DNA of 37,962 nucleotides from a virus. The stretch spans positions 1 through 37,962 of the IMG/VR virus record IMGVR_UViG_3300043437_000121. One strand, given 5' to 3'. The translations under genes and the position numbers were made by a program. Positions 5,687-33,457 of this stretch are shown here, piece after piece; the stretch's first letter is position 1; every line of letters starts with the position of its first letter. The notes beneath the pieces were generated by a model. It worked only from the letters and a program-made list of their open reading frames with translations. It did no database searches and had not been told where the DNA came from.

Positions 5687-6329
5687 TATGTATACTGAGA
5701 TGGATTTGTATGGTTTTGATGATTTTGAGGATTCTCAGAAGTTATTGTTGCTTAATGAGGCATATTTTGATATTGTTACTCGTGAGCCTTGGCCTTTTAT
5801 GGAGAAGGTTATTGAGTTGACTGTGCCTTCTGGTACTACTAAGATTACGAATAATTCGTTTGCTAATTCGCCTAGTGATCTTAATGCTGTGTTGTCGTTT
5901 ACTGATATTACGCATGATGTTATTATGATTCCTGAGCGTGGGGATGTAGTTGAGAAGAATTATAAGATTAATAATCTTAATGTGTATCCTGAGCGTTATT
6001 ATTTTGTTGGTGAGGATTTGTATTTGTATCCGGCTCCGACTGGTAATACGACGTATCGTTTGTATTATGTGCGTGTGCCGATTGCGGCTACGGATACTGG
6101 TCAGGATACGGATTCTAATACGTTTTTTATTCCTTCGCGTCATCATAGTATTATTGTGTATGGTGCGCTTGTGAAGGCGTTTCTTGTTAATGATGATCCG
6201 CAGGCTGCGGCTTTTCAGAATATGTTTGAGCAGCGTTATCAGCAGATGCGTAATGATGCTTGGATGCAGCAGTATGATCGTACTGATCGTATTCATATTT
6301 TGACGGATTCTTACGATTGGAATTACTAA
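5673..6329 (+). CDS. Head-tail adaptor / tail tubular A-like protein
   Basis: A 218-residue protein with a perfect AGGAGGTGA at 5661-5669 before its ATG. Features typical of podovirus adaptors are an N-terminal helical part ending in DIVTREPWPFMEK, a beta sandwich with YYFVGEDLYLYPAPTGNTTY (about 110-130), and a C-terminal helix with repeated Gln and Asp (FEQRYQQMRNDAWMQQYD). Adaptors of this kind bind the portal ring and carry the nozzle. It lies directly before the large nozzle-like gene, the same order as T7 genes 11 and 12. Confidence 0.75.
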   Translation: MTLDDMYTEMDLYGFDDFEDSQKLLLLNEAYFDIVTREPWPFMEKVIELTVPSGTTKITNNSFANSPSDLNAVLSFTDITHDVIMIPERGDVVEKNYKINNLNVYPERYYFVGEDLYLYPAPTGNTTYRLYYVRVPIAATDTGQDTDSNTFFIPSRHHSIIVYGALVKAFLVNDDPQAAAFQNMFEQRYQQMRNDAWMQQYDRTDRIHILTDSYDWNY

Positions 6330-16672: not shown

Positions 16673-19600
16673 ATGGCTACTTTTATGGATAATTGGCGTA
16701 AGCAGATGGGTGTTAAGCCTGTGCAGAATACGCCTGATAATGCTAATACGGTTTCGCAGGCTCCTGTGAAGTATAATCCTAATGCTTTTCAGGATTTTAT
16801 GCGACAGGTGCGGCCTAAGGTTGTTAAGGCTAATAAGTATTTTGCTAAGCAAGAGCGTCTGATTGGTGATCGTAATCAATTCTACTCTTCGTATAATTCG
16901 CAGACTAGTGAGCCTAAGTATAATTTTAGTGATGCTATGCGCTTGTCAGAGTATGGTTATACTGGTTTGTATGGTCGTTCTGATACTAAGAAGACTCTTG
17001 GTTTGTATGGTGATGAGTGGCAGCAGGCTTATGCGCTTGATCGTCTTCGTAAGAATAAGGAAATGCTTGCGTTTAGTGTGATGAATAATACGGATCCGGG
17101 TACGCTTAAGGATCTTGCTGCGGCTACTCCGCTTGTTCCGGGTAAAAGTAATTATAATAATCTTCTTACATTATCTAGTAAGTTTGGTGAGAAGTATGGC
17201 GTTGAGGGCGAGAAGTATGCTTCTCGTTATGGTGCTCTTCCTAAGGTCGGCTCTAAGTATGGTATTCTTTTTAATACTAATAATCAGAAAATTCGTCGTG
17301 ACGATGTTAATGTAACGTATCAGAATGATCTTGTTCGTCAGGCTGTTGGTGTGGCTAAGGATCTTAATAAGATTGGTGTTGATGTTAATAGTGATGTTCT
17401 TAAGGCGCAGGCTCTTGAGTATGCTGGACTTAAGGATTATCGTATTGATTCTACTCGTGCTAAGTATAGTCCTGAAAAGACTAAGGAGTTAGAGCAGAAG
17501 TTATCGCAGGTTCCTAGTATTGTTGGGAGTGTTGCTAAGGCTCTTGGTGGTGAGGAGCAGTCTGCGTATTCGCGTGTGGCGACGAGTACTATTGGTGGTA
17601 TGCTGGGTGGTTTGGCTCTTGGGCCTACTGCTGGTATGCTTGGTAGTGTTTTTGGTGCTGATGCTGAGGGTTCTAAGAAGGTTGCTAAGGCGTTGGATTA
17701 TATGAATGGTCTGGCTGATGATGATCTTCTTAAGGCTCGTAAGACGTATTGGACTGGTAAAGAGAATGTGCCTTGGAGTCAGTATGGTCTTGTTGGTTTA
17801 ACTGGTAATGCTCTTCGTGGTATTGGTCGTATGGGTTTGGGTTTGCCTGCTGGTCTTGCGCTTGCTAATGATGAGGCTTATCTTGCTGGTAAGGAAACGG
17901 CTAAGTGGGCTACTAGTGGTGGAGATTATGATTGGGGCAATAAGATTGATTTTAAGTTAGGTGATGCTATTTGGCAGGATTATGCTAATCGGTATTATGA
18001 TCCTTTTGCTACTCGTGCTGATGGTACGAAGCAGTCTTGGTGGCAGGGTCTTGATGATTCTGCTAATTGGGATGCTATGGGTGAGAAGATTAATAGTGAT
18101 CCTACTGCGTATGCTCTTGATATTCTTGATGTTGCTCCTATTGTTGGTTGGGGTGCTAAGGCTGGTGCTGTTGCTAGTGTTGCTGCTAGGACTGGGCGTG
18201 TGTTTGGTAAGGTTGGTGTGACTGCTGCTGATGAGGCTGCGTTACGTCTTGCTAAGACTCGTGCGCGTGGTGGTGTGTATTCTGAGTATGATGTGCCAGA
18301 GTATGTTAAGGTTGCTCCGGGTTGGATGGATTTTGCTGCGCTTAAAAATATTCAGGATCTTGCTGAGATTGAGACTAAGATTAATCAGGCTCCTAGTGCT
18401 CGTACGTTTAGGCGTACTATGCGTGGTGCTATTAATGGTGATGCGCTTAATCAGGCAGAATTGAATCGTTGGCAGGCTATGGGTTACGAATTTAATGGTG
18501 CTGATAAGTCGTTTAGTATTCGTGCTAGTGCTTTGTTTGAGCCGCGTACTAAGGTTCTTGCTAAGCCTGAGAGTGTTCTTGAGGCTAGTGATAGGGCCAT
18601 TATTCGTCTTCCTGCTTCGCCTATTATGCGTGGCATGAAGGAAGCGTTTTTCTGGGTTGGTCGTGGTGTTGATAAGGCGGCTATTGGTGCTAGTGAGAAG
18701 CCGGGTGTTGTTGGTCGCGTGGGGACTAAGTTCCTTGATATGCCTCTTTTTTCGTATCGGTATAATTATACTAAGGCTGTTAAGAATGAGGCTGTGTATG
18801 AGTGGGGTGATGTTGCGACTGAGTTGAGTCGTGCTAAGACGTTGTTGGAGATTGATAATGAGGCTGATCTTACGCCTACTATGAGTCGTGCTGTTGAGGC
18901 GCAACTTGTTGGTGGCGCTGGCGAGGTTCCTCTTAATTTTCCGGCTATTCAGCGTCAACAGTTGCAGGATAAAATCGCTACTCTTCGTAAAGAATTTGCT
19001 GATAAGAATACGGGAGAGGTTGTTCCTCAGGCTCGTAAGGATCTGGCTAATTTAGAGTTAGAGTTGTCTAAGTTGCTTGATGATGAGATTGTTGATATTC
19101 AAAAGGCTGCTGCGTCGTTTGATGAGGCGTTTAATGAGGATTTGTCTAATCTTCGTCAGCGTCTTTCTGATGCTACGTTTAATGCGGATGATCCTATACT
19201 TGATAAGGCTGAGGCTTTGTATCGTCGTTTGGATCGTCAGGATCAGGCTGTGCGTTCGCGTATTGTGCATGAGGATACTAATCCTACTAGTATTGCACAT
19301 CTTAAGTTGTTGTATCGTGAGGCTATGGATGGTTTACGTTTGAGTGCTACTCACTTGTTTGGTGAGGATGGTAAGACTGGTCGTGTTGGTCGTTATGCTT
19401 CTAGGGTGCTTCGTGTTAATACTAATTTATTATTGACTGGTATGGCTAAGAAGGGTGATCGTCAGGCGCTTATTAATCTTGCTCAGAGGGCTGATGAGGA
19501 TGGTACTGTTTTTGATACTATTACTGATCCTGCTTTGCGTAAGCAGCGTGAGGATGAGATGGTTCAGGCTGTGGCTGCTCTTGATCGTGCTGGAATGTTT

Positions 19601-22195
19601 GTGGATGGTATGGGGTCGTTTGGTGTTCCGGGTCGTCCTGTACTTATTCGTGCTGCGGATAATGTTGGTGATGATTTTGTTGCTTTTCATATTCCTACGC
19701 TTCGTCATGAGATGTATAATGGTAAGGTTAAGAATGGTAAAATCATTGATACTAATGAGACTTTTGTTCTTCCTAAGGTATTTTTTGCTGCTCGTAATAA
19801 GGGTAAGGGCGCTCCTGTTGTTGAGTCGGCTAAGGTTGGTAAGGAGTTATTGTATCAGGGCGCTTTGAATGCGATGAGTAATGTGTATCCTAAGGCTCGT
19901 TTTTATTCTGAGAAGATTAATGATACGGGTCAGCGTGGGGTTCGTATGAATGAGCAGATGATTGCTAATGAAGGTCGTGTTGCTGAGTCTGGTATGCGTC
20001 AGCATGCTTTGTCTCGTCTTATTCAGTCTCAGGTCCATTATATGAAGAATCGTGTTGAGCGTGATCTTCGTAGTCTTGCAGAGTCGCAGGCTGTTCTTGT
20101 TCCTGCTAAACTTGTTAATGGTAAGACTCCTAAGGAGTCTGGTTATCATGTGCTTCATAATATTAGGCCGTTTGATAGTGCTGCTGAGGCGCTTGATTTT
20201 GCTCGTTTGCGTGGTGTAAGTAGTGAAGTTGAGAAGGCTCTTATGGCGTATGCTGATGGGTCGCTTACTCCTATGCAGACTACTCTTGATATTGATACTG
20301 GTCTTGGTATTATTATTAAGGAGAATGGTGAGCCACAGTTTATTGTGCGTGGTGGTACGCATGATTGGGTTAGTGAGGCTAATCAGGAGAGTTTGGCTGA
20401 GCATTCTACTACTAAGGCTTGGATTGCTCGAGAGTTTAGTGATCCTAGTGAGATTCCTGATAATGGTTTTGTGTTTGCTGTTCCGGATCAAGCGTTTAAG
20501 GATCTTGCTGAGATGACGATTCAGTCTGATAATCTTAGTCAGCGTCTTCTTAGTAGTGCTGGTGTTCGGGGTTGGGGTAATTTGTTTAAGTTCTTTGTCC
20601 TTAATGCTAATCCGGCGTTTATTGCTAATAATGTTATTGGTGGTTTGGCGATGATGTTGATGTATAATCCTCATGTTGCTCCGCGCCTTATGAGTACTGT
20701 TATTCAGAAGATTGCTCGTGATAGTATTCGTAGGGGCATTAATAATGATGCGTTTACGCTTCAACTTACTCATTTTAAGAATGATAGTGAGGCTGTTGCT
20801 CGTAGTATTGCTTATGAGAATGAGCATAATATTTATAAGCAGGATGCTGGTCTTGTTGGTGCTACTAAGCCTGAGCCGTTCTTTAAGAAATATGTGTGGC
20901 ATGGTGGTTATACGGTTGTGTCTACTTGGGAAGAGATGATGCGTCGTAATGTGGCTATGGAGTTCTTGCGGAATGATGCTGGTTTCCAATCGTTTATGCG
21001 TGGTCCTGAGGTGCGTAAGTATATTGAGGACGGCGTTGATTGGCATGGTAATGTGCGTCAGGGCGATGAGGCTATTACTCCGTTTGAGGCTGCTACTGAT
21101 CTTCTTCTTGATCGTGGTTCGCCATATTTTAATGCTAATCTTAAGCATCGTATGCGGTATACTACTAATACGGTATCTGGTAATTATCATAATTTTAGTG
21201 CTGCTGAGCAGTTGATGCGTAATGTTGTTATGCCGTTTTATGCTTGGCAGCGTCATTCGGCTACGTTCTCGTATCGTATGCTTGTTGATAAGCCTATTAC
21301 GACTAATGTGTTGTATAATCTTGGTCAGCAAGGGTATTTGCAGAATGCTGAGCAGGGTGTTCCTGATTGGATGATGGGTAGTATTCCTCCTCCTCAGGCT
21401 ATTAAGGATATGTTTGGTATTGAGGATACGGATTTTCGTATTGATGGTAATGCGTTGACTCCGTTTGGTACTACTGGTGAGATGGGTATGGCTGCGTTTA
21501 GTCTCCTTACTGGTGCTGAGTCTAATAGTAGTATTTGGGATTTTACTAATCCTTATCTTAATCAGATGATTAAGGATACGCTTCATGTTAATCCTCAGAC
21601 TGGTGCTATTGATTGGAAGGCTCTTCAGGAAGATTCTACTAGCACTAGTGGTGTTCTTGATATGGGTAAGAATATGTTTAGTAATATTTATAAGGCTACT
21701 TATCCTTATAAGTTGGGTGAGTTGGCTAAGTATCAAGAGTATGAGCAGGATTCGCTTCGTAATAAGTATGCTGAGATTGATAATGCTCCTGAGATTCTTA
21801 AGAATTATGATCCTATGGATCCTGAGGGTACTTGGAAACTTAGTATTCCTAAGATGCGTACTACTGAGGCTCTTGATCCTACTCAGCGTGTGTTAAGTGC
21901 GTTGGGTGTTAGGTCGTATCGGCTTAATCCTAGTACTCTTCCAATGAGTTCTCGTCAGGATGCTGTGGGTGCTATGGTACTTCAGGTGCTTAATGAGGAT
22001 GGTAAGAAGTCTAAGGCTGAGAAGGCTGTTACTGCGGCTACTGAGTGGCAGCGTCGTTATGATTATGTTACTCAGGTTTGGTTGCCTGCTGCTGAGGCTC
22101 AGGGTATGGATCCTAATCAGATTCAGTTAGTTCTTTCTAAAATTAGGGACGAGCGCCCTAAGACTGGCATTGCTAAACAATTAACAGGGGGTTAG
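16673..22195 (+). CDS. Giant internal virion / DNA ejection protein (1840 residues)
   Basis: The largest gene in the window, with ATG at 16673 after a weak GGAG. Most of it is helical. Visible parts: a glycine-rich hydrophobic stretch at about 308-333 (GGMLGGLALGPTAGMLGSVF), long charged helices at about 730-860, a hydrophobic stretch at about 1307-1332 (LNANPAFIANNVIGGLAMML), and MPFYAWQRHSATFSYRML near 1519-1536, close to the PFYTWTR-type motif of large polyvalent and ejection proteins of podoviruses. Length and position match T7 gp16 (1318 residues), but I see no transglycosylase active site. It probably forms part of the periplasm-spanning or wall-crossing ejection channel. Confidence 0.7.
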   Translation: MATFMDNWRKQMGVKPVQNTPDNANTVSQAPVKYNPNAFQDFMRQVRPKVVKANKYFAKQERLIGDRNQFYSSYNSQTSEPKYNFSDAMRLSEYGYTGLYGRSDTKKTLGLYGDEWQQAYALDRLRKNKEMLAFSVMNNTDPGTLKDLAAATPLVPGKSNYNNLLTLSSKFGEKYGVEGEKYASRYGALPKVGSKYGILFNTNNQKIRRDDVNVTYQNDLVRQAVGVAKDLNKIGVDVNSDVLKAQALEYAGLKDYRIDSTRAKYSPEKTKELEQKLSQVPSIVGSVAKALGGEEQSAYSRVATSTIGGMLGGLALGPTAGMLGSVFGADAEGSKKVAKALDYMNGLADDDLLKARKTYWTGKENVPWSQYGLVGLTGNALRGIGRMGLGLPAGLALANDEAYLAGKETAKWATSGGDYDWGNKIDFKLGDAIWQDYANRYYDPFATRADGTKQSWWQGLDDSANWDAMGEKINSDPTAYALDILDVAPIVGWGAKAGAVASVAARTGRVFGKVGVTAADEAALRLAKTRARGGVYSEYDVPEYVKVAPGWMDFAALKNIQDLAEIETKINQAPSARTFRRTMRGAINGDALNQAELNRWQAMGYEFNGADKSFSIRASALFEPRTKVLAKPESVLEASDRAIIRLPASPIMRGMKEAFFWVGRGVDKAAIGASEKPGVVGRVGTKFLDMPLFSYRYNYTKAVKNEAVYEWGDVATELSRAKTLLEIDNEADLTPTMSRAVEAQLVGGAGEVPLNFPAIQRQQLQDKIATLRKEFADKNTGEVVPQARKDLANLELELSKLLDDEIVDIQKAAASFDEAFNEDLSNLRQRLSDATFNADDPILDKAEALYRRLDRQDQAVRSRIVHEDTNPTSIAHLKLLYREAMDGLRLSATHLFGEDGKTGRVGRYASRVLRVNTNLLLTGMAKKGDRQALINLAQRADEDGTVFDTITDPALRKQREDEMVQAVAALDRAGMFVDGMGSFGVPGRPVLIRAADNVGDDFVAFHIPTLRHEMYNGKVKNGKIIDTNETFVLPKVFFAARNKGKGAPVVESAKVGKELLYQGALNAMSNVYPKARFYSEKINDTGQRGVRMNEQMIANEGRVAESGMRQHALSRLIQSQVHYMKNRVERDLRSLAESQAVLVPAKLVNGKTPKESGYHVLHNIRPFDSAAEALDFARLRGVSSEVEKALMAYADGSLTPMQTTLDIDTGLGIIIKENGEPQFIVRGGTHDWVSEANQESLAEHSTTKAWIAREFSDPSEIPDNGFVFAVPDQAFKDLAEMTIQSDNLSQRLLSSAGVRGWGNLFKFFVLNANPAFIANNVIGGLAMMLMYNPHVAPRLMSTVIQKIARDSIRRGINNDAFTLQLTHFKNDSEAVARSIAYENEHNIYKQDAGLVGATKPEPFFKKYVWHGGYTVVSTWEEMMRRNVAMEFLRNDAGFQSFMRGPEVRKYIEDGVDWHGNVRQGDEAITPFEAATDLLLDRGSPYFNANLKHRMRYTTNTVSGNYHNFSAAEQLMRNVVMPFYAWQRHSATFSYRMLVDKPITTNVLYNLGQQGYLQNAEQGVPDWMMGSIPPPQAIKDMFGIEDTDFRIDGNALTPFGTTGEMGMAAFSLLTGAESNSSIWDFTNPYLNQMIKDTLHVNPQTGAIDWKALQEDSTSTSGVLDMGKNMFSNIYKATYPYKLGELAKYQEYEQDSLRNKYAEIDNAPEILKNYDPMDPEGTWKLSIPKMRTTEALDPTQRVLSALGVRSYRLNPSTLPMSSRQDAVGAMVLQVLNEDGKKSKAEKAVTAATEWQRRYDYVTQVWLPAAEAQGMDPNQIQLVLSKIRDERPKTGIAKQLTGG

Positions 22196-24659: not shown

Positions 24660-24740
24660 TCAAGTCGGCGGATACTCAGCATACCTAGGCATAGGAAACA
24701 ATAGTAGTCCTGCAATGATTACACTACTAAGAGTTGCCAA
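24660..24740 (-). CDS. 26-residue hydrophobic leader in frame with the Rpf-like domain
   Basis: TTG start at 24740 preceded by GAGGTGG with proper spacing, overlapping the end of the reductase gene. The product begins MATLSSVIIAGLLLFPMPRY and ends AEYPPT before a TGA. The hydrophobic core followed by a small/Pro-rich region resembles a signal peptide. The TGA is followed in the same frame by AAG and then the ATG of the Rpf-like gene, so replacing one base (TGA to TGG) would give a secreted enzyme. Other genes here end normally with TGA (for example at 14807-14809), so TGA is not generally recoded. Confidence 0.55.
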   Translation of the reverse strand: MATLSSVIIAGLLLFPMPRYAEYPPT

Positions 24741-26646
24741 TATTCACCACCTCACAACCATCAGCAGTACAAGCAAGAGTCTGACTAGAATCAGTATTAT
24801 CCTCTAATTCGTACTCACTCAACTTACTCCAATCAATACTCTCAGGACTCATCTCAATGATCGTATGATAATCCTCTTCTGTGATCTCCTCATAGGGAGC
24901 CTGACGATAAGTATGATCAGACTTAGGAAGGAACGAGATACCAGATACATCATCAAAGTTCTCGTATACCCAAGCACCAACACTCATCCACTCGTCCTCT
25001 TCAACACTAACCGTAATACTAGGCTTGTGCTCACACCACGAGTCCTGATAAGCCTTCCACAACTCTAGATGATCAATAGCCGTGAGAGCCTTTTTACGGG
25101 TCATAGGAGCCTTCTGTGGGAAGTCGAACACCATGATCTCATTATTAGTCACATCAGCCTCACAAGGCACTCCAGCGTCCATTAGGAAGCGTGTGAGAGG
25201 ATCCTTGATATCTCCACGGACACGCCTAATGTAATAAGGAGCGTAGCGAGGATGAATACCACTAGCGGAATCCACAAGTTGCGACACAGTTCCACTAGGC
25301 TTGACACAAGTAATCGCAGTAGACTGTTGAATCTTGAGAGTCTTAGCAAAATCCTTGTTTGTTCGAATAGCAACTTCACGCATCTCCTTAAGGTTAGGAG
25401 CGATCTGCATGCTACCGTTCCCAGTCATCCACTTAGAGTCGAAGATACCTGTGAGCGACACGCCGAGCAGACGTTCCTCTTCCGTGTTCTGCCGCCACAC
25501 CTTACGCAGATACTTAAAATCAGTAAGGGTAGCCTGAAACGTGCCAAGAATTGTAGCGAGCCGAACCTTACGCTTAAGATCATCAAGACTATCTGATGCG
25601 CGAACCACAACCTCAGTAAGATTACAAAACTGGTGCGGACGTAGAATAATCTCAGAGCATGGATTAGTGCCAAACGCATACTCTGTATCACGCCTCCCAT
25701 TCTTTGCAGCCTGCTTGATTGCAGCCTCACGATTAAAGATACCACGCTCACCACTCTTGGACTGGTATAGGCTTAGCCATTCTTCCATGAACGCATCCAT
25801 ACCCGGCTTTTCAGAGTAGGCGACCGAATTGTTAGCAAGAGAACGTTGAACATTGTCCTCCCACCACTGACCGGACTTAGCGTTTCGCATGCGCCCATCA
25901 GAGAGGTTAGAAAGACTAATAAGTGCTGATCGCCGTACGCCACCAACCACGACCACTTCAGCAATCTTACATACAAGATCATGACACTCCAAACTTGTCA
26001 ACTTACGACCAGCAGCATTCTCAAACAACTTGGTAGTAAAGATAAACAAATCCTCTAGAGGAGCAGGACCAGACGCACGACCACCAAACGTCTTAAGGCG
26101 ACTACCAGCAGGACGAACCAGAAAGTAATCAATGCTAGGCTTCTGACCAGCATACAACATAGCAATCAACTCTCGTAGTGCTCGTGCCCAACCAGCCTTA
26201 GAATCAGCAACAGTAATAATAGTAGTACTATCCTCAAAGTGCTCATTCACAATCGGCAACTGATTAATCTCATCACGCTCAACAGAGAAACCAACACCCA
26301 CACCATTCATCAAGATATACAGGATCTCGTCAAAGCAACGAGGATGATTAATAGGCGTATACGAACAATTATACCCAGCCACATTCTCACGCTGCAACGC
26401 AGGACCAGCAGTCATAAGTGCTCGCATACTAGGCATAACCTCAAGCCCAATAATAGCATCAAGCAACTCTGCCTTCAACTCGGCAGGCATCTTATAATTA
26501 TTATTAACCTTAAGATGCTGCTCCATAAACTCTACATAACGATTAACCGTTTCAGGCCAGTACTCTCTACGATTCTCAGACTCTAGCCAGCGAGCATAAC
26601 GACTCGTAGCAATAAATGTCTGATAATCAGTTGGCAAACTCATCAT
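24727..26646 (-). CDS. nrdJ: Class II (B12-dependent) ribonucleotide reductase, monomeric type
   Basis: A 639-residue enzyme that should reduce ribonucleoside triphosphates to deoxy forms with adenosylcobalamin. Key residues: Cys94 (YNCSYTPINHPRCFDE), thiyl Cys330 in NPCSE, Cys341 in QFCNLTEVV, and the C-terminal redox pair Cys626/Cys631 (LACTADGCEV). The spacings of 11 and 5 equal those of the Lactobacillus leichmannii enzyme (C408/C419, C731/C736). An in-frame ATG at 26760 would read through the tRNA gene and give the well-known artefact MAELVDATDLKSG; I choose the ATG at 26646, six bases after GGAAAGG. Related monomeric enzymes are common in cyanophages and actinophages. Confidence 0.9.
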   Translation of the reverse strand: MMSLPTDYQTFIATSRYARWLESENRREYWPETVNRYVEFMEQHLKVNNNYKMPAELKAELLDAIIGLEVMPSMRALMTAGPALQRENVAGYNCSYTPINHPRCFDEILYILMNGVGVGFSVERDEINQLPIVNEHFEDSTTIITVADSKAGWARALRELIAMLYAGQKPSIDYFLVRPAGSRLKTFGGRASGPAPLEDLFIFTTKLFENAAGRKLTSLECHDLVCKIAEVVVVGGVRRSALISLSNLSDGRMRNAKSGQWWEDNVQRSLANNSVAYSEKPGMDAFMEEWLSLYQSKSGERGIFNREAAIKQAAKNGRRDTEYAFGTNPCSEIILRPHQFCNLTEVVVRASDSLDDLKRKVRLATILGTFQATLTDFKYLRKVWRQNTEEERLLGVSLTGIFDSKWMTGNGSMQIAPNLKEMREVAIRTNKDFAKTLKIQQSTAITCVKPSGTVSQLVDSASGIHPRYAPYYIRRVRGDIKDPLTRFLMDAGVPCEADVTNNEIMVFDFPQKAPMTRKKALTAIDHLELWKAYQDSWCEHKPSITVSVEEDEWMSVGAWVYENFDDVSGISFLPKSDHTYRQAPYEEITEEDYHTIIEMSPESIDWSKLSEYELEDNTDSSQTLACTADGCEVVNIGNS

Positions 26647-26684
26647 ATCTAACCTTTCCATAAACTCTTTAAAATTATAACTAG

Positions 26685-26766
26685 TAGGGCTGGAGGGAAT
26701 CGAACCCTCACACCCAAGGGTACCGGATTTTAAGTCCGTTGCGTCTACCAATTCCGCCACAGCCCC
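26685..26766 (-). tRNA. tRNA-Leu, anticodon UAA
   Basis: The reverse complement folds as a class II tRNA: acceptor GGGGCTG with CAGCCCT (one G-U pair), D arm with GGCGGAATTGGTAGACGC, anticodon stem-loop CGGA-CTTAAAA-TCCG giving anticodon TAA, a long variable arm, and a T arm GAGGGTTCGATTCCCTC. The discriminator is A; CCA is not encoded (CTA follows). It decodes UUA, and by wobble UUG. It lies in the operon between the phosphoesterase and reductase genes. Confidence 0.95.
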
Positions 26767-30388: not shown

Positions 30389-31129
30389 TTAGTTAAGCAC
30401 ACGAATGAAAGCAGCAACGTCAGTAACGCGACGTTCCATAAGAGCAACCATGCCACCATCCGACGGATTAGTACCACTAGTGTTGCCCTCAATACTAGTG
30501 AACGTCTTTTTCTTGCCCGGAGGAACATTCACAATACCAACATGGTCAGGCACACCATCGCCCTTCCAATCAAATAGGACAACATCACCAACCTGAGCAT
30601 CAGCAGCCTTAACAATCTTAAGACCATTACGCATAGCCTTAGCATCAGCAAGGATATACGGACAATAAGCGTACTTGCTGCCCTTAACGAACGACTTGCT
30701 CTTTGCCTGAGTGAAACAATACGTCACGAACATAGCGCACCACGGTCCACGCATACCATACCAATTAGAGAACATAACAATGTTAGAACCAGCAGGCTGC
30801 TCACTCACACCAATAAAACGACTAGCAATGTCAAGAGCATCAGCACCAATGTACTTATTCTTGTTACGAGACTTGGCTCGCTGTCGCATGATTAGACTAG
30901 GCTTAGCCTTACCAGCAAGGAACTGGAACAACTGATCGTCAAACTGACTATTAATATTCTTCTCAGCATAACCAAGATCCCACTTAGCAGCCTTCGTAGC
31001 AGCCGCAGTAATAGGACCATACAATGCATCAATCTTATCATTATAATAACCATGATGCTTTAGCGCACCTTGTGCCGCACTAACATCAGCGCCCTTCATA
31101 TTTGGACTAGTCAACACTAACGTTCTCAT
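30389..31129 (-). CDS. Endolysin: peptidoglycan-binding domain plus CHAP amidase/endopeptidase
   Basis: A 246-residue enzyme. Residues 10-72 resemble the PG_binding_1 helical fold (VSAAQGALKHHGYYNDKIDA). Residues about 98-240 form a CHAP domain with Cys131 (GPWCAMFVTYC), His196 (VPDHVGIV) and Glu214/Asn216 (TSIEGNTS) as the active-site set. There is no signal peptide, so export needs the holin of the opposite strand. The gene sits between primase-helicase and polymerase, an unusual place for a lysis gene, but T7 gene 3.5 (amidase) is also placed among replication genes. Confidence 0.87.
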   Translation of the reverse strand: MRTLVLTSPNMKGADVSAAQGALKHHGYYNDKIDALYGPITAAATKAAKWDLGYAEKNINSQFDDQLFQFLAGKAKPSLIMRQRAKSRNKNKYIGADALDIASRFIGVSEQPAGSNIVMFSNWYGMRGPWCAMFVTYCFTQAKSKSFVKGSKYAYCPYILADAKAMRNGLKIVKAADAQVGDVVLFDWKGDGVPDHVGIVNVPPGKKKTFTSIEGNTSGTNPSDGGMVALMERRVTDVAAFIRVLN

Positions 31130-31362
31130 ACCATACTCCTTTGATTTTGGATTACTCGCTGCTCTTCAATATAGATCAGCCTATCAATATACCACTTAGC
31201 CTTACGAAGATCCTCAATACCATTCTTATAACGATACCGACTCACATACTTTAGCACATTGCCCTGATGATAGTCAAGTGCCAAACCCTCAATGGCTGTA
31301 ATAACTTCCATATCGCCCTGAGTATAATGTTTAGGACTATTTACGGGATCATCAATTGCCAT
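31126..31362 (-). CDS. DUF3310 protein (T7 gp1.7-like)
   Basis: A 78-residue protein. The start is the ATG at 31362 after GGAGGAA; upstream in-frame codons overlap polymerase coding. DPVNSPKHYTQGDMEVITAI and GNVLKYVSRYRYKNGIEDLR carry the DUF3310 pattern with conserved Pro-Lys-His-Tyr and Lys-Tyr-x-x-Arg. The T7 member gp1.7 is reported as a nucleotide kinase; whether this short version has that activity is unknown. It overlaps the polymerase end by 11 bases and the endolysin start by 4. Confidence 0.85.
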   Translation of the reverse strand: MAIDDPVNSPKHYTQGDMEVITAIEGLALDYHQGNVLKYVSRYRYKNGIEDLRKAKWYIDRLIYIEEQRVIQNQRSMV

Positions 31363-32095
31363 TGTATTCCTCCTTATCAGCCCAATTAGTAGTAGACCAT
31401 TCGCAGTCTGTTTCAATACTAACGAATTGTTCTACGATTTTATTCCCCATCAAGTAGGGAACATGTGTAACAAGATGGCTAATCTCTGCCTTATCTGCAT
31501 CAATAATAATTTCGTCATGCACGATATTGACAATGTGACTAGCACAATGCTTGTCTAGAAATGTGCTGACCTTAACTACGGCATCCCGCATAAGATCAGC
31601 AGCGGAACCCTGAATGAGCGCGTTGAGTGCTTTATGGTGCTCTTCGACATGTAGCCGACGACCATACAAATTACTGATATACCCACGGCTATTCAGAGTT
31701 TCGCTAATTTGATTGTTTAGTTTTGCAATGCCCGGACGAGTCTCATGATAAGCCTTAAGCAATCGTTTGGCTTCTTTAAAGTCTACGCCTAGTTGTCGCA
31801 TAATTGTAGGAGTACCACCACCATAGATGATACTAAAGTTTAGTGTTTTACCAACTTGCCGCTGGTCGTCTGTGATGCGTTCCGATGCGTATAGTCCTTG
31901 GGCGGTAACAAGGTGCGGATCTGCTCCATTGTTAATTTCGTTTGCAAGCGAATTATCGTTGATCCCTCGTGACAAGTAGTAAGCGAGTAGACGGACTTCG
32001 ATGGCTTTATAGTCAAAGAATAAGAATGCATCCAACTTGGGTTCAAATGCTCGTTTAACATCTTTTTGACTCCTTGGAATATTCTGTACGTTCAT
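31352..32095 (-). CDS. polA: DNA polymerase family A, C-terminal piece (motifs A, B, C)
   Basis: A 247-residue protein beginning MNVQNIPRS, the middle of the conserved PolA segment SSxxPNxQNIP. It holds motif A (FFDYKAIEVRLLAYY, Asp28), motif B (RQVGKTLNFSIIYGG, Lys83/Tyr91) and motif C (IVHDEIIID, His193-Asp194-Glu195), thus all catalytic aspartates. It starts in an ATGA overlap with the stop of the N-terminal piece, in the -1 frame. A GGAG lies about 10 bases upstream. Activity would require re-initiation and assembly of the two chains, -1 frameshifting, or the split could be an error. Confidence 0.85.
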   Translation of the reverse strand: MNVQNIPRSQKDVKRAFEPKLDAFLFFDYKAIEVRLLAYYLSRGINDNSLANEINNGADPHLVTAQGLYASERITDDQRQVGKTLNFSIIYGGGTPTIMRQLGVDFKEAKRLLKAYHETRPGIAKLNNQISETLNSRGYISNLYGRRLHVEEHHKALNALIQGSAADLMRDAVVKVSTFLDKHCASHIVNIVHDEIIIDADKAEISHLVTHVPYLMGNKIVEQFVSIETDCEWSTTNWADKEEYNGN

Positions 32096-33051
32096 GCTTC
32101 TGCTGCTCCACTGCTCATCCGACCAGTCCTAGTTCCATGCTGTCGAAAGTTTGGATGTAGTATACCATCTTTTGCTTCATTGTCAAGTCCATCAAAGTAA
32201 GTGGTCTTGATCTTGTTGGCTTCTCGCAACTCTACAATTAGCGATGCAAGTTCGTCATCCATGCTGGCAAGCGTAGCCTTGTCGGTCTTTTTAATCCGAA
32301 TTCCTCGCTCTTCAAATGCCGCAATGATCTGCGCTGGCGACTGAGGGTTGAATTCTGCCCCGGATATTTCTGCAATCCGCGCTTTCGTTTTATAAATCTT
32401 ATCACCATACTCCTGACGCTGCTTCTTTACATAACTACGATTGATCTTTAATCCTTTGGCTTCGATGCCGAGGAGGGATTGTGTAAGTGCTTTCTCAATG
32501 GCATACAACGGTTGCAAATCTTTGGGCATTCTATTCCAAAGTAATTCGTATAACCGCAATGTGAATTCTGCGTCTTTCTTAGCGTACGGCGCAAGAATCT
32601 CATGGGGGATAGGCTCATAACCTTCTTCCTTTTTAATTTTGTTTTGTCGTCGCCAGACCTTTAGTACCTCATCCTCGTCAGTTTCTTCACCAAGGATAGT
32701 ACGAGCAAGATACTTAAGGCTAGTAGATTGCTGCTCATTAATAAGATGTGCCAGTGCTTGTGTGTCTTCAAACTTGTTTTCAAATACGCTAAACGGAATA
32801 CCTAGCCGACACAATTTTTGAATATCAAACTTAGCATTATGCATGATGATCTTCTTGCTGTTTTCTAGCAAGCCTAGGATACCACCATATTCGCACTGCC
32901 ATTTCTCTTCATCACAGATACGACGATCATACACTTCACTGCGCAAAGAACCATCATCAGGATCATAAGATGCAATACTAATCATGAAGGCTTCATCATG
33001 CCAACCAACACCCGTTGTCTCAGTATCAATAGCCAGTAGATCCAAAGCCAC
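32092..33051 (-). CDS. polA: DNA polymerase family A, N-terminal piece (3'-5' exonuclease and thumb)
   Basis: A 319-residue protein with GTG start overlapping the dUTPase end. Exonuclease motifs: DTETTG (9-14), HNAKFDI (71-77) and YAKKDAEF near 157, giving proofreading. The thumb region follows, with FNPQSPAQI and KTDKATLASM, ending at the palm motif TRTGRMSSGAAEA, where a TGA stops it. The sequence would continue without a gap into the downstream piece after a -1 shift. Together they have 566 residues, normal for a phage PolA with exonuclease. Confidence 0.87.
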   Translation of the reverse strand: MALDLLAIDTETTGVGWHDEAFMISIASYDPDDGSLRSEVYDRRICDEEKWQCEYGGILGLLENSKKIIMHNAKFDIQKLCRLGIPFSVFENKFEDTQALAHLINEQQSTSLKYLARTILGEETDEDEVLKVWRRQNKIKKEEGYEPIPHEILAPYAKKDAEFTLRLYELLWNRMPKDLQPLYAIEKALTQSLLGIEAKGLKINRSYVKKQRQEYGDKIYKTKARIAEISGAEFNPQSPAQIIAAFEERGIRIKKTDKATLASMDDELASLIVELREANKIKTTYFDGLDNEAKDGILHPNFRQHGTRTGRMSSGAAEA

Positions 33052-33457
33052 GGTCGCCCCTCATCCCACTCCATACCATATTATCACCACGCAACAAATT
33101 AGTTTGCATAAGAGGCTGCACCATGAACTGTGCAATCTTATCGCCACGCTCAATCAGGTAATTAAAATCATCCATATTACCAAGCACAACCTTGATCTCA
33201 CCACTATACTCAGCATCAATAATACCCGGAGCATTCAATACAAACACACCATGCTTAGATGCCAAGCCACTACGACTCATAATAAAACCTACATGCCCAG
33301 CAGGAATACGAATAGCCAACTCCGTACGAGCAGTACCATAACCATGAGCAGGAATAGTAACGGATTCACTAGCCCGTAAATCAAAACAAGCATCAGCCTT
33401 ATGCCCCTTAACAGGAGCATGAGCATACTTAGTAAGGTGCTTATAATTAATAATCAT
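33026..33457 (-). CDS. dut: dUTP pyrophosphatase (trimeric dUTPase)
   Basis: A 143-residue enzyme with all five motifs: DACFDLRA (22-29), MSRSGLASKHG (60-70), NAPGIIDAEYSGE (75-87, with the catalytic Asp81), RGDKIAQFM (104-112) and the C-terminal RGDRGFGSTG (133-142). It hydrolyses dUTP to dUMP and pyrophosphate, keeping uracil out of DNA and feeding thymidylate synthesis. Length is typical. It overlaps the polymerase start, suggesting co-translation with replication genes. Confidence 0.95.
   Translation of the reverse strand: MIINYKHLTKYAHAPVKGHKADACFDLRASESVTIPAHGYGTARTELAIRIPAGHVGFIMSRSGLASKHGVFVLNAPGIIDAEYSGEIKVVLGNMDDFNYLIERGDKIAQFMVQPLMQTNLLRGDNMVWSGMRGDRGFGSTGY

Follow-up and report, generated by a model that had tools for sequence, protein, structure and literature searches.

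The family A DNA polymerase of an uncultured phage, represented by a 37,962-bp IMG/VR virus record (hereafter the window, the whole stretch of DNA that was analysed), is encoded by two overlapping frames on the minus strand that share an ATGA at 32095..32092. In this phage and in the clade to which it belongs, the enzyme very probably consists of two subunits, that is, two stable polypeptides produced by termination-reinitiation. By homology to Taq polymerase, the loop that is naturally cut touches the primer-template close to the end of the primer; the cut persists throughout a diverse clade of phages and has apparently been repeated independently 20 residues away. The case offers a clean test of how an active site is put together again from two chains and of why phage replication genes break so often at the same spots, and it bears on polA-based surveys of viral communities, which may call such genes fragments or discard them.

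The polymerase gene of the window

Re-reading of the open reading frames reproduced the ATGA split at 32092-32095 and both frames as described in the original prediction. The features of the region are the following:

32092..33051, minus strand: polA N piece, from GTG at 33051 to the TGA ending at 32092; 319 aa, ending ..TRTGRMSSGAAEA; 3'-5' exonuclease (DTET, HNAKFD, YAKKDAE), thumb and start of the palm, with the tail TGRMSSGAAEA-TGA
31352..32095, minus strand: polA C piece, from ATG at 32095 to the TAA ending at 31352; 247 aa, beginning MNVQNIPR; palm and fingers, with motif A (DYKAIEVR), motif B (RQVGKTLNFSIIYG), QGSAADL and motif C (VHDE)
32092..32095, minus strand: ATGA shared by the stop and the start; this is the split junction in its empty form, and in relatives it is the site of gene insertion
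32104..32110, minus strand: AGTGGAGC-type stretch that precedes the C-piece ATG by about 9-15 nt and weakly resembles a Shine-Dalgarno sequence; weak evidence
33026..33457, minus strand: dUTPase gene directly upstream of the N piece, overlapping its start by 26 nt; replication operon context

In Pfam, the N piece matches DNA_pol_A_exo1 (PF01612, E 1.9e-17) and the start of DNA_pol_A (profile positions 2-123), and the C piece matches DNA_pol_A (PF00476, profile positions 127-380, E 2.3e-46), so that almost no profile positions are lost between the two. The exonuclease and polymerase motifs had been described as intact, and these matches bear this out together with the conservation of the catalytic residues. 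Across 27 sequences, the polymerase residues D28, E33, R79, K83, F87, Y91 and H193-D194-E195 are invariant, motifs A, B and C being present with their catalytic residues, and the exonuclease retains its DEDD signature (D9/E11 nearly invariant, D76 and D160 invariant). Both halves are under purifying selection, with dN/dS values of 0.05-0.19 in pairs with measurable divergence, except for the N piece of one near-identical pair (L009/L011, 0.41).

Profile alignment places the split point between S577 and N580 of Taq polymerase. In the Taq and Bst structures, R573 and N580/Q582 touch the primer-template close to the primer end. A cut through this conserved substrate-contact loop is mechanically awkward, which counts against a functional two-chain enzyme. 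The remark that the position is unusual is a fair one, but a second split about 20 residues downstream has been published and an intein is found in the same loop (see below). The predicted fold of the C piece (pLDDT 85) corresponds to the palm and fingers of Bst and KlenTaq polymerases (TM 0.70-0.82, normalised to the query), and the split ends are predicted to be disordered in isolation (residues 300-319 of the N piece and 1-4 of the C piece). The broken ends TGRMSSG and NVQNIPR are nonetheless invariant, a combination that would fit segments folding only upon meeting the other chain.

Conservation of the split

The clade was sampled as about 40 IMG/VR contigs, all uncultured and metagenomic; both halves are visible in 37 of them, which have amino acid identities of 60-99%. 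The original prediction had allowed for a single unbroken frame in close relatives; all 37 are instead split, at the same codon, a recurrence beyond what chance would give. The direct ATGA or GTGA overlap, for which it had proposed a search in other genomes, recurs in three contigs from other metagenomes (L006, L008 and L021). Throughout the clade, the N piece ends in TGRMSSG followed by a few variable residues (SSG plus 3-5 aa), and the C piece starts with M/V-NVQNIPR, its first codon being ATG or GTG at the split codon in every distinct relative examined except L023. There the codon is ATT, an ATG in the same frame stands nine codons upstream, and an HNH-like ORF comes immediately before. 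The tail of the N chain differs with the insert that follows it (AAEV, QAGV, AAKE, AAEES). The two halves are always adjacent and in the same order, and they are separately encoded, each with its own start and stop, and kept together, as are 43A and 43B of the two-chain gp43 polymerases.

One continuous polypeptide through the palm, a usual although not a catalytic feature of family A, is accordingly absent from the window and its 37 relatives. Distant relatives (37% identity or less) that are readable across the split point are single-chain there. Searches for close cultured relatives yielded none, the best matches in the phage collection being about 33% identical for the C piece and about 29% for the N piece, and a scan of genome contigs recovered only single-chain polA genes of acidobacterial MAGs, up to 33% identical. 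Most simply, the split represents a single ancestral event.

Proposed translation and assembly of the two chains

Three options had been put forward at the outset, namely a two-chain polymerase made by termination-reinitiation, a programmed frameshift, and a one-base error. The first is now strongly supported, the last is excluded, and frameshifting is excluded in most of the clade and unsupported in the members with an overlap. The simplest reading would be that the window relies on termination-reinitiation at its ATGA, and the relatives with filled junctions on ordinary polycistronic translation. Both cistrons would lie on one message and, in the window, the ribosome would terminate the first cistron at the TGA and restart at the overlapping ATG. 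The Shine-Dalgarno-like duplex before the C start of the window has an energy of -5.6 kcal/mol, compared with a background mean of -3.2 and with 27% of random positions reaching -5; a strong Shine-Dalgarno sequence as proof of reinitiation was considered and rejected, the window signal being weak, and with so modest an energy reinitiation is a step that we infer.

The first chain would comprise the exonuclease and thumb and end just after ..TGRMSSG, and the second would comprise the palm and fingers and begin at the conserved NVQNIP. These chains would associate non-covalently and so rebuild the primer-binding site and the active site, because the equivalents of Taq R573-S577 are on one chain and those of N580-Q582 on the other. 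A precedent for such an assembly may be seen in the split family B polymerase gp43 (43A/43B) of Aeromonas phage 25, the chains of which co-purify and are active as a polymerase (PMC2988022).

Alternative explanations

The frames overlap in the -1 direction, and a ribosome shifting at the last GCA would read on into an open fused frame; programmed -1 ribosomal frameshifting might in this way fuse the halves, if not in all forms then in those with an overlap. This is excluded for the greater part of the clade, where other genes separate the halves: a frameshift cannot bridge the 169-1942 bp that lie between them in the filled relatives. At the overlap itself (GCAGAAGCATGA), no slippery heptamer is apparent by eye, RNA structure is no stronger than in shuffled sequences (z = +0.39), and the combination of slippery site, stimulator and conserved overlap was not found. 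Nor is the -1 join length-neutral, although it had been described as being without loss. The product, SSGAAEAM-NVQNIP, has 9 residues from GR to the conserved N, compared with 6-7 in most single-chain relatives, such that the fused loop would exceed that of most single-chain polymerases and the additional residues resemble a genuine C-terminus plus a start codon and not a decoded linker; the variation of the N-chain tail with the insert also speaks against decoding through the junction. We consider frameshifting highly improbable. The chance of a sequencing or assembly error, or of a recent one-base deletion inactivating polA in the window genome, is smaller still and practically negligible. 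Changing a single base would be enough to join the frames, and an ATGA is easily formed, but independent assemblies share the split, which excludes an error: the same overlap is present in L006, L008 and L021, with N pieces 68-84% and C pieces 76-95% identical, and in about 30 further contigs the two halves of the split gene have whole genes between them. Unrelated genes inside the cut in most relatives indicate an old, preserved arrangement, and the low dN/dS argues against recent inactivation as well as error.

Restoration of a single polypeptide by an intron or a (split) intein, with the inserts being introns that carry ORFs, is also very unlikely. Group I introns are possible in phage polA genes (PMC10580990 and references therein), a real HNH-bearing intein occupies the same loop in one bacterial polymerase, and an HNH-like ORF stands at the L023 junction, but the window has no insert whatsoever and no intein sequence is present where the halves end and begin. 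Rfam covariance models run at gathering thresholds on eight sources (the window, L003, L017, L023, L037, L040, MEP401 and an Alcaligenes phage) matched only tRNAs and no intron family, a search that intron types of an unknown kind could escape. The inserted ORFs behave as ordinary cistrons in overlapping neighbouring starts and stops, and they take up the gap so fully that a ribozyme would have little space. Somewhat less remote, and still unlikely, is that the halves do separate jobs without reassembly, the N piece as a free-standing 3'-5' exonuclease and the C piece as a partial polymerase. Both halves are recognisable sets of domains that are under selection, and a recombination breakpoint is seen near the junction; against this, TGRMSSG and NVQNIPR, whose meaning depends on a joint primer-binding site, show no variation in their respective pieces, the C piece is without a thumb, and the halves are never separated in order or adjacency. 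A two-subunit polymerase that is assembled from both chains therefore remains the preferred explanation.

Comparison with other split and interrupted polymerases

A split family A DNA polymerase was reported in the phages MEP401 and MEP402 of OM43 (Methylophilales) bacteria, which belong to the Zobellviridae (PMC10580990; OP830906), and the authors suggested a possible intron there (PMC10580990). These OM43 phages were the only other case of split PolA found in the literature that was searched. In MEP401 and 76 IMG/VR relatives, every one of the 77 loci in which both halves can be seen is split, and Alcaligenes phage vB_Af_QDWS535 (OK172329) groups with this type. As in the window clade, there are two adjacent genes, the first encoding the exonuclease and the start of the polymerase and the second its C-terminal part, with small inserted ORFs or a direct overlap at the junction. 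The MEP401-type split, however, follows QNFDGEIKxLFxSRY and directly precedes motif A (..LFxSRY / M-L-ADAKxLE), about 20 residues downstream of the SSG/NVQNIP site at which the window is cut, and most junctions of the window clade contain a 255-aa GT2 gene by which they differ from the MEP401 type. A split shared by descent was rejected on the basis of the site and an AU test (p = 3.8e-6), a test limited by the long single-chain branches; the single-chain polymerase of HMO-2011 is sister to the MEP401 group (100/99). The two split groups are separate clades, and family A phage polymerases have thus apparently been cut at least twice in one short segment.

Single-chain family A phage polymerases (Microbacterium phage Shocker gp43, RedRock gp46, and the contigs L182 and L184, 37% and 35% identical to the window in the C part) have the same domains and motifs but one continuous frame through ..TGRxSSxxPNxQNxP... 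The gp43 genes of Aeromonas phages 25 and 44RR likewise encode a replicative polymerase as a pair of cistrons separated by other DNA or by a homing endonuclease, and differ in belonging to family B, with another fold and split site and with a seg endonuclease or an untranslated spacer in between (PMC2988022). The PolA of an acidobacterial MAG of the Pyrinomonadaceae (L138) is interrupted in the same loop, at TGRFS|CSKPNIQQIP, by an intein within one open frame, whereas the phage split is without an intein:

2982-5693 of L138: full intein, Hint/Intein_splicing and HNH_3 (Pfam)

This intein and the second split about 20 residues on point to the loop segment as a recurrent insertion site, and an origin of the split through insertion of a mobile element at the loop is plausible.

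Two further kinds of interruption were observed. In L105 and L106 (~2180-2547 and ~5819-6186), about 230-370 bp separate the parts of a polA that is broken at motif A (..GGDFS / QQEPRLLAHF); this may be a small intron that has gone unrecognised or a split of a third type, and no Rfam intron matched in L105. In L120 (1558-2765), the polA N and C matches are about 1.2 kb apart and the N frame runs into unrelated sequence, an arrangement that appears intein- or intron-like.

Contents of the junction

Four genomes (the window, L006, L008 and L021) have the empty junction with its direct ATGA or GTGA overlap, and the remaining clade members carry other genes between the halves. The commonest insert is the 255-aa GT2 glycosyltransferase (PF00535, E 7.3e-14); an acidic ORF of about 60 aa is often present and other small ORFs less often, and the HNH-like ORF, with a PF01844 score below the cut-off of that profile, occurs at the L023 junction alone. 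In nearly all filled junctions, the C-piece start lies in a stop/start overlap with the final inserted ORF, one exception being L033, in which no inserted ORF of at least 25 aa does so. The acidic ORF (WxWYYVSM..WPVFAxxFxxAMxxY) is fast-evolving and lies just before the C piece in L025, L028, L034, L017, L019, L035, L037 and L040; neither of the two tested had a Pfam match. Relocation of the GT2 gene elsewhere in the overlap-form genomes was considered, and none was found in the window or in the examined stretches of L006, L008 and L021.

A copy of GCATGA marks each end of the insert in most of the GT2-filled forms that have an ATG start, and clean recombination between the copies would yield the empty form. 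An unrooted tree built from 28 concatenated polymerases nests the empty form with filled forms in a well-supported clade (100/99). Junction content changed at least 15 times on it, gain and loss of inserts being indistinguishable because the tree is unrooted; with midpoint rooting, every outermost row is filled. The C genes of the window and L003 are nearly identical (dS 0.07) and their N genes diverged (dS 0.87), and L003 agrees with L007 in its N end and GT2 insert (both at ~97-98%) as well as in the opening ~60 nt of its C gene. Comparison of these three sequences places a recombination breakpoint just inside the C gene.

The polymerase junction is best read as an insertion hot spot. It would tolerate and exchange inserted genes because each chain carries its own start and stop there, with homologous recombination in the conserved flanks swapping empty and filled junctions. 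Possible, although we regard it as rather doubtful, is the stronger view that the junction is a conserved cassette-exchange site at which the split is used and not merely tolerated, with accessory genes (GT2 and others) held between essential half-genes, translationally coupled to the polymerase and swapped by recombination, the same having evolved independently in the MEP401 lineage.

Genome context

The portal protein of the window matches those of Microbacterium, Arthrobacter and Cellulosimicrobium phages (26-29%), from which an actinobacterial host may be guessed. The largest ORF of the window (16673-22195, plus strand; 1840 aa) matched nothing in Pfam or PHROG. A CHAP-domain endolysin with a peptidoglycan-binding domain (30389-31129, minus strand) lies inside the replication module, with the polymerase on one side and the primase/helicase on the other. 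A ribonucleotide reductase (24727-26760, minus strand; phrog_367) is about 63% identical to enzymes of Streptomyces phages, HMO-2011, and Sinorhizobium and Roseobacter phages, and its relatives are annotated as B12-dependent.
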